Of a DNA stretch of 10,352 bases, positions 1,274 to 10,352 are shown in pieces (position 1 is the stretch's first letter; each line of letters opens with the position of its first letter). Position numbers and translations under genes: made by a program. This DNA is from Actinomycetota bacterium (GTDB taxonomy: Bacteria > Actinomycetota > Acidimicrobiia > Acidimicrobiales > Poriferisodaliceae): the NCBI GenBank assembly GCA_002731665.1, contig PCCJ01000053.1:1-10352 (forward strand), given 5' to 3'. The notes under the pieces are model-generated. The model was not told the DNA's origin, searched no databases, and saw nothing but the letters and a program-made list of their open reading frames with translations.

Positions 1274-1302
1274 TTTACACCCTCTGCCTACATACGTAAT
1301 CT
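1274..1302 (+). promoter_or_regulatory. Possible promoter of the FrnE-like selenoprotein gene
   Basis: TTTACA (1274-1279) resembles a -35 element and TAATCT (1297-1302) a poor -10 element, 17 bases apart. Initiation near 1308-1310 would give an almost leaderless mRNA for the ATG at 1315, which would fit the absence of a Shine-Dalgarno sequence there. The -10 match is only about three of six, so this is tentative. Confidence 0.25.
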
Positions 1303-1314
1303 ACCCTCTAAAGA

Positions 1315-1953
1315 ATGCCCCTGGATTCAGTACAGATAACCGTATGGTCAGATTACCTGTGACCATGGTGTTGGGTCGGGGCCGTGCGTCTCGATGAATT
1401 AGTTCAACAAGAGGGTGACAACATAAATGTCCAGTGGAAGTCGTTTTTATTGCGACCTCACTCTGAGTTGAGAGATATGGCAGCATTCACTGAATATACG
1501 AAAAGCTGGGAGAGGCCCGCATCTCTTGAACCCCTCGCCCAATTCAGCACCCCATGGTCTGGCGAAAATCCTCCACCGTCGCATTCACTGCCAGCAGCCG
1601 TAGCAGGAAAAACCGCAGCAACATTTGGCGAAGCCGCGTGGCGCCGATACCACTACCAGATGCTTCGAGCTTACTTCACCAAGAATCATGATATTTCAGA
1701 TTCTGACGTCCTTCTAAACCTCGCTCAAGAAGTCGACATCGACAAGCATATTTTTGAGAAAACACTAGAAGCCAACAGGGAAATTTTTGAGAGCCAAATA
1801 TTCGCTGAACACAACGAGGCTTTAAGCAACGGTGTGAATGGTGTTCCCGCTGTTGTTATCGGCAATAAATATCTAATTTCTGGCGCTGTTGAAATAAACC
1901 ACTACAAGAAAGCACTTGCTCACTATCGAGACATTGAGTCCGGCGAAAGCTAG
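1315..1953 (+). CDS. FrnE-like DsbA-family oxidoreductase, predicted selenoprotein (UPWC active site)
   Basis: A 212-residue thioredoxin-fold thiol oxidoreductase of the DsbA/FrnE group, predicted to carry selenocysteine. The frame from ATG 1315 has one interruption, TGA at 1360-1362, exactly where the family has the first Cys of its CPWC motif: it reads SDYL-U16-P-W-C19-W, followed by GAVRLDEL. The rest is intact and family-like: the FLLRP segment, a helical domain with RAYF..NHDIS, and the cis-proline loop GVNGVPAVV (Pro178) followed by YLISGAV. An in-frame TAA at 1309 makes ATG 1315 the only reasonable upstream start. Starting instead at GTG 1384 would delete the first beta strand and the whole redox motif. 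No signal peptide is seen, so it is probably cytoplasmic like FrnE. No good Shine-Dalgarno precedes the ATG. egtB follows after 138 bases on the same strand. The alternative is a nonsense mutation or sequencing error at one base; the SECIS-like hairpin and otherwise undamaged frame argue against it. Confidence 0.82.
1360..1395 (+). promoter_or_regulatory. UGA Sec codon with candidate bacterial SECIS hairpin
   Basis: Directly downstream of TGA 1360-1362 the mRNA can fold an 8-bp stem, 1375-1382 with 1388-1395: G-U, U-A, C-G, G-C, G-U, G-C, G-U, C-G. The apical loop is CGUGC (1383-1387). Twenty bases separate the UGA from the loop, and a G is among the first two loop bases. Both fit what is known of bacterial SECIS elements read by SelB. 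The base after the codon is C (UGAC), a weak termination context in E. coli. Three G-U pairs make the stem only moderately stable, and a competing CATGG/CCGTG pairing (1364-1368 with 1382-1386) exists. Confidence 0.6.
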
Positions 1954-2091: not shown

Positions 2092-3375
2092 ATGTCTCAG
2101 TCCAATGCTCAGATAGCTGACTTGCGGGACCGTTACCGGACCGTAAGAAATTTTACGGAAACTCTAGCGACTCCGCTAGGGGCAGAGGACCAAACTATTC
2201 AATCTATGCCTGATGCTTCGCCAACTAAATGGCATCGGGCACATGTGACTTGGTTCTTCGAGACATTTATTTTATCAGCATTTCAGAACGACTATCAGTC
2301 TCACTATCCAATGTACAACTACCTTTTCAATTCTTACTACGAAGCCATTGGAGACCGCCATCCTCGTTCTAATCGCGGTCTATTGTCACGTCCCACTATT
2401 GAGGAAATTTCTGAATACCGTCAAGCCATTGATCAATCGATGGAGTCATTTTTTTATACGCTTAGAGACTCGGCTGACACAACACTTCTTAACTTAATTG
2501 AGCTCGGGTTACACCATGAGCAACAGCATCAAGAGCTTATTCTGATGGACATTAAGCACGCATTATCTTTGAATCCTCTTGCCCCAGCCTATCTCAGCAC
2601 CTCTGCTCCAGAGATAACTAATCAAACACATTCAGAAACCGCTCTTAATTGGGTTCACTACCCAAGAGAGATCACAAGAATTGGACATGGAGCAGAGAGT
2701 TTTTCTTTCGACAACGAAGGCCCCAATCACGAAGTTCTAATTCAATCATTCAACATCGCTGACCGCCTTATCACCTGTGGCGAGTGGCTGAGTTTCATTG
2801 AGAATGGGGGTTACCAAAAGCCCGAGCTATGGCTCAGCGAAGGATGGCAAACCGTTATGAGCGCCGGCTGGGATAGTCCAGCTTACTGGTCACAGACTGC
2901 TGACAAAGATTGGCAGATTTTCACTCTGTCTGGCCAAACTAAATTGATTCCAGAGATGCCGGTTGCCCACATTTCCTATTACGAAGCTGATGCCTTCGCT
3001 CGCTGGTATGGAGCAAGGCTTCCCTTAGAAACTGAGTGGGAACATGCCGCCCGCAACTTAAAAGTAAGAGGTAACTTTAGCGACGATTCGTTTCTCAACC
3101 CGCTACCCGCTCAGGATGACTCACTTAAATTGAAACAAATTTTTGGTGATCTTTGGGAATGGACCGCTAGTCCTTACGTTGCTTACCCCGGTTTCTCAGC
3201 AGCATCTGGTGCCGTGGGGGAATACAACGGAAAATTTATGGTAAATCAAATGGTTTTGCGCGGTGGTTCATGCGCAACCCCGCGGGACCACATGAGACTT
3301 ACTTACAGAAATTTTTTTCCTCCCCACTCCCGTTGGATGTTCTCGGGTTTACGTTTAGCTAAGGATGAAACATGA
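2092..3375 (+). CDS. egtB: Ergothioneine biosynthesis protein EgtB (iron-dependent sulfoxide synthase)
   Basis: EgtB joins hercynine (trimethylhistidine) to gamma-glutamylcysteine or cysteine using O2 and a mononuclear iron, forming the C-S bond of ergothioneine as a sulfoxide. The N-terminal DinB-like domain shows His51 in WHRAHVTWFF and the HxxxH pair His142/His146 in LGLHHEQQHQEL, the expected three-histidine iron site. The C-terminal half is a formylglycine-generating-enzyme-like domain, ending in the typical LRGGSCATP, TYRNFFPP and SGLRLA segments. At 427 residues it has the usual family length. ATG 2092 is preceded by a purine-rich AGGTAGGG at a rather long distance. It overlaps egtD by ATGA, so the two are translationally coupled. 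Which thiol donor it uses cannot be read from the motifs; egtA, egtC and egtE are not in the window. Confidence 0.95.
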   Translation: MSQSNAQIADLRDRYRTVRNFTETLATPLGAEDQTIQSMPDASPTKWHRAHVTWFFETFILSAFQNDYQSHYPMYNYLFNSYYEAIGDRHPRSNRGLLSRPTIEEISEYRQAIDQSMESFFYTLRDSADTTLLNLIELGLHHEQQHQELILMDIKHALSLNPLAPAYLSTSAPEITNQTHSETALNWVHYPREITRIGHGAESFSFDNEGPNHEVLIQSFNIADRLITCGEWLSFIENGGYQKPELWLSEGWQTVMSAGWDSPAYWSQTADKDWQIFTLSGQTKLIPEMPVAHISYYEADAFARWYGARLPLETEWEHAARNLKVRGNFSDDSFLNPLPAQDDSLKLKQIFGDLWEWTASPYVAYPGFSAASGAVGEYNGKFMVNQMVLRGGSCATPRDHMRLTYRNFFPPHSRWMFSGLRLAKDET

Positions 3376-4358
3376 TGAACCAACAACAAGAGGAATTCAT
3401 CGTAGATCTCCGCATCGACGAGGAATGGATTAGTCATTCACTCGCTGCTGACATACACATGGGCATCACCAAGGCTAAAAAGTCGCTACCTCCCAAATGG
3501 TTCTACGATGAGTTAGGGAGCGAGCTCTTCGACAAAATAACTCAGCTCAGTGAATACTACCCCACCGAAGCAGAGCGAGAAATTCTAAATGTCCAGGCAG
3601 CTAACATTGCCAAAATCTCTCAAGCGGATCACTTAATCGAATTGGGATCCGGTTCTTCAGACAAAACTAGATCTATCCTCGATGCTTTCGCATCAGCGGA
3701 GCAACTCGATTTCTTTACGGCTCTAGATGTCAGCGAAGAAATTCTCCTAAGCTCCGCTAAACAACTTAAACAGCGGTACCCAAACGTAAAGGTCCGAGCC
3801 ATAGTAGGTGATTTCGATCATCATTTAGATGCCGTGCCACAATCAGGAAAGCGTTTATTCATCTTCTTGGGGGGAACAATCGGTAACTTCGAGCCAGAAG
3901 CTCGGCAAAAATTTTTGTTAGGCCTTACAACCCGATTCAAGCCTGGAGATTCTCTTTTGCTTGGAACAGACTTAGTTAAAGAAATTCCTCGTCTGGAGCT
4001 TGCATACAACGATCCAGAAGGTATTACTGCAGCATTTAACAAAAATATTCTTTCAGTTATTAACAAGAATCTTGGTGCCAACTTTGATATCGAAAAATTT
4101 GATCATGTCGCTCAGTTTGATACTGACCAAGAATGGATAGATATCGGCCTAAGAAGTCGCGGCGATCAACAAATTGACATTGAAAAGCTTAATCTAAAAG
4201 TTAATTTTCTCAATAACGAGATAATGAGGACAGAAATCAGCGCCAAGTTTCGCCCAGAGGGCATCGAACAAGAACTGAGCGCCGCAGGCCTTACGATCCA
4301 AAATTTTTGGACTGATAGCGCTAAAGATTTTGCAGTCACTTTGTCTACTCTGGCCTAA
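3372..4358 (+). CDS. egtD: L-histidine N-alpha-methyltransferase EgtD
   Basis: EgtD trimethylates the alpha-amino group of histidine with three S-adenosylmethionine molecules to make hercynine, the first committed step of ergothioneine synthesis and the substrate of the adjacent EgtB. Family landmarks are in order: PPKWFYDELGSELFD (40-54), LSEYYPTEAE (59-68), the SAM-binding LIELGSGSSDKT (88-99), ALDVS (117-121), GDF (146-148), the FLGGTIGNF loop (165-173), LLLGTDLVK, and near the C terminus TEISAKFRPEG, which holds the substrate-binding Glu and Ser region. The length of 328 residues is normal. The start is one of two consecutive ATGs; the first (3372) makes the 4-base ATGA overlap with egtB and has AAGGA at 3361-3365 with good spacing. 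The gene ends 44 bases before a convergent thioesterase gene. Confidence 0.96.
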   Translation: MMNQQQEEFIVDLRIDEEWISHSLAADIHMGITKAKKSLPPKWFYDELGSELFDKITQLSEYYPTEAEREILNVQAANIAKISQADHLIELGSGSSDKTRSILDAFASAEQLDFFTALDVSEEILLSSAKQLKQRYPNVKVRAIVGDFDHHLDAVPQSGKRLFIFLGGTIGNFEPEARQKFLLGLTTRFKPGDSLLLGTDLVKEIPRLELAYNDPEGITAAFNKNILSVINKNLGANFDIEKFDHVAQFDTDQEWIDIGLRSRGDQQIDIEKLNLKVNFLNNEIMRTEISAKFRPEGIEQELSAAGLTIQNFWTDSAKDFAVTLSTLA

Positions 4359-6674: not shown

Positions 6675-7874
6675 ATGTTGAGCAAAAATCAAATTAGCGA
6701 CTACGAACGCGACGGGTTTCTAGTCCTACGTCAACAGATATCCGAAGCTGACATACAGCGATTAGAACGCGGACTTGAGCGAAATCCGCCATTGGATGGG
6801 ACTCTATATGACGCCACAAGGCTGACTTATCCTGAACCTGGCAGATATACCCTCGCAAACAACTGCCTTAAGGATCCAGATCTAAGTTTTCTAGCCGAGC
6901 ACAAGTCAATTATTCCACCGGTAACTGAATTGCTCGGCGGCGAACCTCGACTAACAGCTTTTGTCATTTACGACCGAACGCCAGGTGGTTCAAGTATCCC
7001 AGGTCACAATGATTACAAACGTTGGCGTCCGGTCGGGTCTTCCATGAACTGGCTGTTCGCAATTACTCCATTCACTGACTTCGATTCCAAAACAGGACCC
7101 CTATTTGTCGCTCCCGGTTCACACCAGTTGCAACGGATTACCAACAACCACGAGCGCCCGCTAGCCGTCGCCCCTCCCGTCGCTCCCTCACCTTCCGCTT
7201 ATATAGACCCAATTCTTAAACGAGGCGACCTTCTGCTAATGAACATGCACTTGTGGCACAAGGCATCTGGCAATTCATCTCAAACACACCGAGTAGGTGC
7301 CTTTAACAAATACTGCTCTTCAGATGCCCCTCCCGCTACCGGATATTTTCTATATGATGATGACGTTCATGATGCGCTATCACTTGAAAAAAAATCTCTG
7401 TTAGGTGTACATAGCAACAAACAAATCAAAACGACTCGTCTGCTTCTTACGCGAAAGCGGCAAGACACTGAGATTCTTTTGTGCAACGATCGGCATCACC
7501 AGTTGATACTGCCGGGCGGTGAAGCGATTCCCGAAACCGCTATTGCCGACTGGGACCAGGGAAATTTTGTGGCATCTCTGCACGCGGCGATCCGCTCGCA
7601 ACTTAAAATCGAGGTGCCTTGGGTGTCTTATATCGGAGACTTCGCTGAGGCTGAAGGCCTTTGCCGGGTCTACGGCTACGACCTTAATCAGCTAGGATTT
7701 CCTGTCGAGTATGACAATGCTGTTTGGAAAACAATCCGAGAGATTGAAGCTGAAAGCAGCATCCTTAAATGGGGCTACGAACCTGCCGCACTAAACCTCT
7801 GGCTCGACCCATCTATCACCCGCGGCAAAGCCCTAACGCAAGCACAATGCCGAATAAACCAGTACGCATTTTGA
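6675..7874 (+). CDS. Phytanoyl-CoA dioxygenase-like protein with C-terminal degenerate Nudix domain
   Basis: A 399-residue two-part protein. Residues 1 to about 235 are a PhyH-family Fe(II)/2-oxoglutarate dioxygenase: the iron triad is His111-x-Asp113 (GHNDYKRW) and His195 in RGDLLLMNMHLWHKASGN, and the Arg of THRVGAF is placed to bind 2-oxoglutarate. From about residue 255 a Nudix-like fold follows: LLLTRKRQ, a strand ending ILPGGEAIPE (LPGG at 279-282), then the position of the Nudix helix. There the usual RE..EE residues read A304-A305-I-R-S308-Q309, so the pyrophosphatase metal ligands are missing. The start at 6675 is chosen for AAGGAGA (6664-6670); the frame upstream to 6597 lacks support and overlaps the divergent gene. 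The dioxygenase part is probably active and hydroxylates an unknown lipid or small molecule. The tail is more likely a binding or regulatory module. Confidence 0.83.
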   Translation: MLSKNQISDYERDGFLVLRQQISEADIQRLERGLERNPPLDGTLYDATRLTYPEPGRYTLANNCLKDPDLSFLAEHKSIIPPVTELLGGEPRLTAFVIYDRTPGGSSIPGHNDYKRWRPVGSSMNWLFAITPFTDFDSKTGPLFVAPGSHQLQRITNNHERPLAVAPPVAPSPSAYIDPILKRGDLLLMNMHLWHKASGNSSQTHRVGAFNKYCSSDAPPATGYFLYDDDVHDALSLEKKSLLGVHSNKQIKTTRLLLTRKRQDTEILLCNDRHHQLILPGGEAIPETAIADWDQGNFVASLHAAIRSQLKIEVPWVSYIGDFAEAEGLCRVYGYDLNQLGFPVEYDNAVWKTIREIEAESSILKWGYEPAALNLWLDPSITRGKALTQAQCRINQYAF

Positions 7875-9740: not shown

Positions 9741-10352
9741 TCAATACGGTGCTAAGTCGTAAAATCTGAAGTGTTGATTAATCGTGCGATGCCACTTATT
9801 TCGCGACAGCTCGCTGTTGATTGCAGCCAAACCTGTTCCATATTTACTAAGTCGGACAGGCCTATGACCACACCGCCACAAAACGCGGTCAATGGATGCA
9901 GAGCTGTGCGGAGATTTCGTTTCAATTACCACACCGTTAATTGACGTTTCTTTCCCTTCGGTAGCTTCACATTTGACGCCCAAATCTGCAGTTAACCGCA
10001 CACCGTTTTCTACATCTACAACTGAAATACGCTCGTACGACGTCCGCAAAGTTGTTAGAAGCGTTTCAGCAAGGCCTTCCCGACCCAAGGCCTTGTTCAC
10101 AAATTTTATGCCTTCGACCGTCAAACTCGGCACCACCGAAAAGTTTTCTGGGAGCCGACTCTTCAAACTTCGTCCACGATGGTCGCGAAGCTTTACTTCT
10201 ACAAGAGATTTCTGCGAATCCAAGTAAGTTCGGGTCCTTACTTTCCAGCGCCTCCTGCGACGGTGGGCCGTGGCACGAAATGATTCCAAATCCGCCGTAT
10301 CAAAGTACCAAGATTCATATGCGAACGACCTCTTCTCAGTAATTTCTAAAGC
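9741..10352 (-). CDS. VTC-domain (polyphosphate polymerase-like) protein, 5' truncated by window edge
   Basis: The C-terminal 203 residues of a protein with the VTC catalytic fold (triphosphate tunnel metalloenzyme superfamily), which in yeast Vtc4 polymerises polyphosphate from ATP. The frame is open to base 10352, so the gene starts outside; a TTG at 10289 is inside conserved sequence and is not a real start. Visible elements are YFDT near the edge, the basic strand RRRRRWKVRTRTY, EVKLRDHRGR (tunnel-lining basic and acidic residues), a central ENGVRLTADLG strand, then VVIETKSP and the typical end RPVRLSKYGTGLAAIN...KWHRTINQHF. Bacterial versions often stand next to membrane or CotH-type genes, which would lie beyond the window. 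The enzymatic product is inferred from the family only. Stop is TGA at 9741. Confidence 0.85.
   Translation of the reverse strand, partial: ALEITEKRSFAYESWYFDTADLESFRATAHRRRRRWKVRTRTYLDSQKSLVEVKLRDHRGRSLKSRLPENFSVVPSLTVEGIKFVNKALGREGLAETLLTTLRTSYERISVVDVENGVRLTADLGVKCEATEGKETSINGVVIETKSPHSSASIDRVLWRCGHRPVRLSKYGTGLAAINSELSRNKWHRTINQHFRFYDLAPY

Follow-up and report, generated by a model that had tools for sequence, protein, structure and literature searches.

An in-frame TGA as the predicted selenocysteine codon in the active site of a FrnE/DsbA-type oxidoreductase gene from Acidimicrobiales

The DNA analysed here (the window) is a stretch of 10,352 nucleotides from contig PCCJ01000053.1 of assembly GCA_002731665.1, assigned to an actinobacterium of the order Acidimicrobiales. 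At 1315-1953 on the plus strand lies a gene that, judged by sequence comparison, very probably codes for a FrnE/DsbA-type disulfide oxidoreductase, presumably cytosolic, in which the residue predicted to attack, number 16, would be selenocysteine (Sec, U) encoded by an in-frame TGA. The gene has the following features.

1315..1953, plus strand: coding sequence of the FrnE/DsbA-type protein with TGA read as Sec, 212 residues, from ATG 1315 to the stop codon TAG 1951-1953
1360..1362, plus strand: TGA, predicted Sec codon, residue 16 and first position of the UPWC active site
1369..1371, plus strand: TGT, Cys19, the predicted resolving cysteine and the sole Cys of the protein
1375..1395, plus strand: predicted bacterial selenocysteine insertion sequence (SECIS) hairpin of 8 pairs, 1375-1382 with 1388-1395, and loop CGUGC
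1384..1386, plus strand: GTG, the start codon under translation table 11, with which the active site is lost; a predicted annotation artefact
1843..1848, plus strand: the Val177-Pro178 loop, with no variation at either residue across the 32 sequences of alignment A2

Under table 11 the open reading frame starts at GTG 1384 and covers 1384-1953 (189 amino acids), which confirms the statement in the initial annotation that a standard reading loses the active site. Its reading upstream through one TGA holds as well: from ATG 1315 the frame is open to the TAG with a single TGA, in the context SDYL-U-PWC, and the rest is intact. ATG 1315 had been placed directly after an in-frame TAA; the TAA is found at 1309-1311, but one codon (AGA) separates the two. 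Three other genes in the window had been said to use TGA as a normal stop, and by visual inspection they do (EgtB at 3373-3375, a PhyH protein at 7872-7874 and a minus-strand VTC-domain frame at 9741-9743), so there is no wholesale reassignment of TGA.

A scan with one genome per species gave 13 homologous loci. The two closest, L001 in an Acidimicrobiales metagenome-assembled genome (MAG) and L002 in an Acidimicrobiaceae MAG, are about 90-91% and 88-89% identical over 211 residues and have TGA at the same codon, so the base is confirmed in related contigs; their genomes, the nearest ones, are referred to as G001 and G002. The other 11 loci have TGT or TGC at residue 16 and come from Myxococcota/Deltaproteobacteria, Armatimonadetes and one further bacterium. 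Among 39 genomes of the L002 family, matches at E<=1e-3 occur in 38, and 24 contain a full-length orthologue, each with exactly one TGA (24/24); two further genomes have orthologue fragments only, at contig edges. In an even sample of the order, in which at most seven candidates per genome were scored at first look, matches at E<=1e-25 occur in 59 of 397 genomes with one TGA in 59/59 rows. A phylum sample gave matches at E<=1e-20 in 3 of 396 genomes, each with a single TGA; two of the three had already been met in the other samples.

When the rows are aligned, TGA stands at residue 16 in 76 of 76 orthologues (the window, 24 and 51 others), that is in 75/75 besides the window, and these rows comprise 74 distinct sequences 3' of the TGA. 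L022 and L023 denote the genes already listed as L001 and L002, which are counted once, and fragments that end at contig edges before residue 16 is reached (L046 and L083 in G020, L080 in G011) are left out. With L137, which has one TGA and is included in the tree described below, there are 77 orthologues in all, each with one TGA and 76 of them checked at residue 16. The 13 rows with Cys, which are the 11 loci from outside Acidimicrobiales and two paralogues picked for having no stop (L077 and L078), have TGT (8) or TGC (5) at this position. Around the TGA there is synonymous variety in the following Pro codon (CCG 24, CCT 23, CCA 19, CCC 10), and the codon of Cys19 is TGT in 47 rows and TGC in 29; the Cys19 column is Cys in 32/32 sequences of alignment A2. 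Because 75/75 orthologues keep TGA where the relatives from other phyla have Cys (11/11 loci), the codon is very likely read as Sec; the initial annotation had proposed looking for Cys/Sec pairs at residue 16, and Cys/TGA pairs are found there.

The segment ahead of the TGA behaves as coding sequence under purifying selection, because its ratio of nonsynonymous to synonymous polymorphism (pN/pS) is low compared with the stretch just upstream of the ATG. For codons 2-15 the ratio is 0.11 in the three closest sequences and 0.19 in 20 family members, for codons 17-23 it is 0.09 and 0.03 and for codons 25-45 it is 0.20 and 0.16, while upstream of the ATG it is 0.61 and 1.05; all values are from pooled pairs of related genomes, which are not independent. 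Decay of the upstream segment in homologues, which had been named as an observation that would speak against Sec, is therefore not seen.

The predicted hairpin just downstream of the TGA covaries and would fit a SECIS-type stem-loop with a G in its small apical loop. Alignment A1 (76 sequences, 54 columns), in which the stem is formed by columns 16-23 with 29-36, was compared with 500 shuffles. Over the 74 distinct sequences 92.6% of 592 stem cells are paired, and 0/500 shuffles are as high. The 26 stem cells that are changed on both sides exceed the count in all 500 shuffles, and the covariation score of the stem is also reached by 0/500. Versions of the stem slid along the alignment are only 37-47% paired, and the real stem is above all of them in pairing, in cells changed on both sides and in covariation score. 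At pair 21-31, C-G replaces G-C in seven sequences by a silent change in the third base of Gly together with a change from Leu to Val. RNAalifold independently recovers six of the pairs. In six Cys relatives (L003-L008) 18/48 stem cells are paired and none has at least 7 of the 8 pairs, compared with 70/74 of the Sec sequences.

The genes for Sec insertion, selA, selB, selD and tRNA-Sec, which the initial annotation had suggested looking for in the same genome, are all present in G001 and G002, and from these relatives rather than from its own genome we infer that the organism of the window has them too. In the family, selB is over the cut-off in 39/39 genomes and selA is found in 39/39; selD is found in 36/39, each with at least one copy with one in-frame TGA, and tRNA-Sec in 32/39 at E<=1e-9. 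The tRNA-Sec of the L002 genome has UCA in the anticodon loop. SelD of G001 and G002 (L084 and L085) reads GAG-U-ACK and is very likely the product of a second gene with TGA as Sec. In the order sample selA matches at E<=1e-60 are found in 234/397 genomes, with 54/59 among carriers of the orthologue and 180/338 among non-carriers (odds ratio 9.5, p 6e-9 by Fisher's test, which pools related genomes and is uncorrected for relatedness). One family genome, G035, has a second selD match without TGA besides the one that bears it (G035:C144:4414-5334 and G035:C31:3-833).

Several results weigh against a SECIS-directed insertion of Sec. The number of pairs changed on both sides is not unusual (344/500 shuffles are as high), nor is the number of further pair types (166/500), thus two of five covariation measures fail, and relatedness of the sequences inflates the covariation counts. 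The invariant GU of the loop is equally required by a Val codon. Folding energy 3' of the TGA compared with synonymous recoding does not separate Sec from Cys sequences; the mean z, with its standard error in brackets, is -0.25 (0.18) for family rows, -0.77 (0.13) for the remaining rows of the order, -0.57 (0.10) for a Sec paralogue and -0.49 (0.19) for the Cys relatives. Single-sequence window folds are unremarkable, with z from -0.33 to -0.95. Because the energy tests fail to discriminate, support for the hairpin is taken from covariation and from the contrast with the Cys relatives. Among the 24 family carriers a selD match is absent in three (G009, G010, G018) and a tRNA-Sec match at E<=1e-9 in six, and 5/59 carriers in the order sample have no selA match at E<=1e-60; the cause is likely that the MAGs are incomplete. 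A count of SECIS-like hairpins was passed by 25/25, 47/50 and 30/30 Sec rows but also by 8/13 Cys rows, and was not used because its criteria are loose. A search of the whole window with Rfam at gathering scores gave a tRNA as the only match.

Other explanations of the TGA have to be weighed against these findings. If it were a true stop, the functional protein would be a truncated DsbA fold made from GTG 1384 and devoid of an active site. That start is the one predicted by table 11, and 33 of the best 120 of 188 protein relatives start at the corresponding place, but purifying selection on codons 2-15 and 17-23 (pN/pS 0.19 and 0.03 in the 20 family members), the conservation of the residues on either side of the TGA in the orthologues and the N-terminus shared with Cys-type homologues in alignment A2 make termination at this codon very improbable. 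TGA is also one base away from a Cys codon and could be TGC or TGT misread in sequencing or mutated in a recent pseudogene. The same TGA, however, recurs in 75 further genomes, with one orthologue row each, and in 30/30 rows of a paralogue, and the remaining frame is intact, so that both error and pseudogene are ruled out by the related genomes, with a negligible probability left.

Read-through of TGA without Sec occurs in other bacteria, and a near-cognate tRNA or a reassigned code could in principle put Trp or Cys at this codon. This is hardly to be expected here, given that three genes in the window end in TGA, that the counterpart is Cys in all 11 loci from other phyla and that the nearest genomes have Sec machinery and a selD of Sec type.

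The PF01323 (DSBA) profile matches residues 7-201 (E 5.8e-26), and a DsbA-like thioredoxin domain is present with UXXC at residues 16-19, where the first long helix (17-36) begins. Just 15 residues precede the active site, and no signal peptide is visible by eye. The Val177-Pro178 loop is presumably the one expected to face the active site, the cis-Pro loop of thioredoxin folds. The best solved match by both sequence and structure is FrnE of Deinococcus radiodurans (DR_0659; PDB 5cnw, 5cp1), which has the same fold over 202 residues and CPWC at the place of UPWC, and this supports the FrnE/DsbA-type assignment made in the initial annotation. The D. radiodurans protein differs in having Cys instead of Sec, in its identity of about 26% and in a C-terminal CXXXXC pair of its own; no such motif is present in the window protein. 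In excerpts, which is how all papers cited here are represented, D. radiodurans FrnE is described as a predicted cytoplasmic oxidoreductase, and the C-terminal CXXXXC is found in many but not all FrnE proteins (PMC8945050). The motif does not define FrnE, because S. roseofulvus FrnE is without it (PMC8945050).

In the proposed mechanism SelB, bound to the hairpin, would bring Sec-tRNA, whose anticodon is UCA, to the UGA codon. Sec16, located just ahead of the first long helix, would then attack the substrate disulfide through its selenolate, and Cys19 would resolve the mixed selenosulfide. Regeneration would be by a cellular reductant, because the protein has neither a further Cys nor the C-terminal CXXXXC pair that is the proposed regenerator in Deinococcus FrnE.

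The kind of selenoprotein to which this gene would belong is already known, because a DsbA-like COG2761 family with UXXC and nine sequences was among 15 new selenoprotein families in the Sargasso Sea survey of 2005 (PMC1088965), and frnE of Deinococcus (DR0659) belongs to COG2761 (PMC1978522). The view that a FrnE-type Sec protein in what looks like an F420-using actinobacterium is not a standard example thus overrated its novelty. Later surveys also list DsbA-like selenoproteins (PMC1794560, PMC5029168, PMC9312934, PMC13188914), and a review from 2026 has a 'DsbA-like protein form 1' with PF01323 and UxxC (PMC13188914). The published families resemble the window gene in the DsbA fold of the COG of frnE, in Sec as the first residue of UxxC and in a SECIS-like stem-loop after the TGA (PMC1088965, PMC13188914, PMC1978522); their sequences AACY01178397 and NIP15863.1 are likened to the window clade by description only. 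Acidimicrobiales are not named in the excerpted text on DsbA-like selenoproteins, and among open-licence papers none was found that joins selenoprotein, DsbA and Acidimicrob- or selenocysteine, selenoprotein and Acidimicrob-. Co-occurrence of SelA and SelB is described in excerpts for sponge symbiont bins of various phyla, and Acidimicrobiia bins are listed (PMC5649159).

Standard annotation would miss the active site, and a 'truncated DsbA family protein' becomes a predicted selenoenzyme when it is recovered. Among the best 120 of the 188 protein relatives, 75 have CPWC. Besides the 33 with a start at query residues 17-30, another 12 begin further on, so 45 in all begin past the active site, which points to an annotation error that can be corrected; DNA of close kin suggests that these are truncated at the TGA, but contig ends may instead be the cause in some of the 12.

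The Cys-type DsbA proteins L003-L008, mainly from Myxococcota/Deltaproteobacteria, are 35-41% identical and have CPWC in the context of UPWC; unlike the Sec orthologues, they have Cys at the catalytic column and do not form the hairpin. A tree of 123 rows was made by a quick search; it includes half of the paralogue rows (15 of 30) and, from the 75 CPWC proteins among the relatives listed, 18 sequences. Its supports are moderate, and the program gave a warning about adjoining long branches. The tree places the Sec orthologues on one side of a branch (support 78 by the SH-like approximate likelihood ratio test, SH-aLRT), adjoining Cys proteins that include L003-L008 (SH-aLRT 68), and two changes of state between Sec and Cys suffice. 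Among the 338 genomes of the order sample that do not carry the orthologue, of which 158 lack a selA match, none has a Cys orthologue at E<=1e-25. It is conceivable, though we hold it only tentatively, that the FrnE orthologue of this order is locked to Sec and has been lost with the Sec machinery instead of becoming a Cys enzyme. The substrate would in that case demand selenium chemistry, and these genes lend themselves to the question of why Sec is not swapped for Cys in this enzyme.

The genomes of the family also contain a second DsbA-like paralogue (L047-L076), often of about 219 residues and with the motif [FY]-[LIM]-U-P-W-C. It is 22-31% identical, has one TGA, at the active-site column, in 30/30 rows, and has a conserved GC-rich stretch 3' of the TGA. 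It is like the FrnE-type gene in its U-P-W-C with TGA but forms a separate group (SH-aLRT 85) with a downstream sequence of its own. This suggests that one actinobacterial family has two DsbA-type selenoproteins and a Sec-type SelD. A partial match, L079 (G014:C12:91900-92600; residues 3-46, 43% identity), has TGA at the same place and was not counted; it may be a fragment or else a third copy with Sec.

Ahead of the gene there is one further candidate feature.

1297..1302, plus strand: TAATCT, a possible and weak -10 element 12 nucleotides 5' of ATG 1315, with GTAATCTAC kept in the window, L022 and L023

The related GATCTA is seen by eye in many other family rows. At this distance from the ATG the TAATCT could, as a weak suggestion, fit an mRNA with a short leader or with none.

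L002 is syntenic with the window through the genes for amidase, egtB, egtD, hotdog, PPOX, LLM and PhyH proteins to an FMO gene, with 83-94% protein identity, so the window is from a close relative of the L002 genome. In both L001 and L002, egtB is next after the gene. In 22 other family loci, with flanks of at most 1.5 kb, the window genes are absent at E<=1e-8 in 21, and L045 has an LLM relative with 47% identity. Because the neighbourhood is not conserved in the family loci, no functional link to the ergothioneine genes is claimed. EgtB was considered as the selenoneine enzyme SenA and rejected; it is an ordinary EgtB, because its 335 bits with the SenA model fall below the cut-off of 420 and its 559 bits with the EgtB model exceed the cut-off of 360. 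The egtB and egtD genes (2092-4358) overlap by four bases. In the PhyH-domain protein (6675-7874, 399 residues) the part past residue 206 or so has no Pfam or NCBIfam match at E<=0.001.
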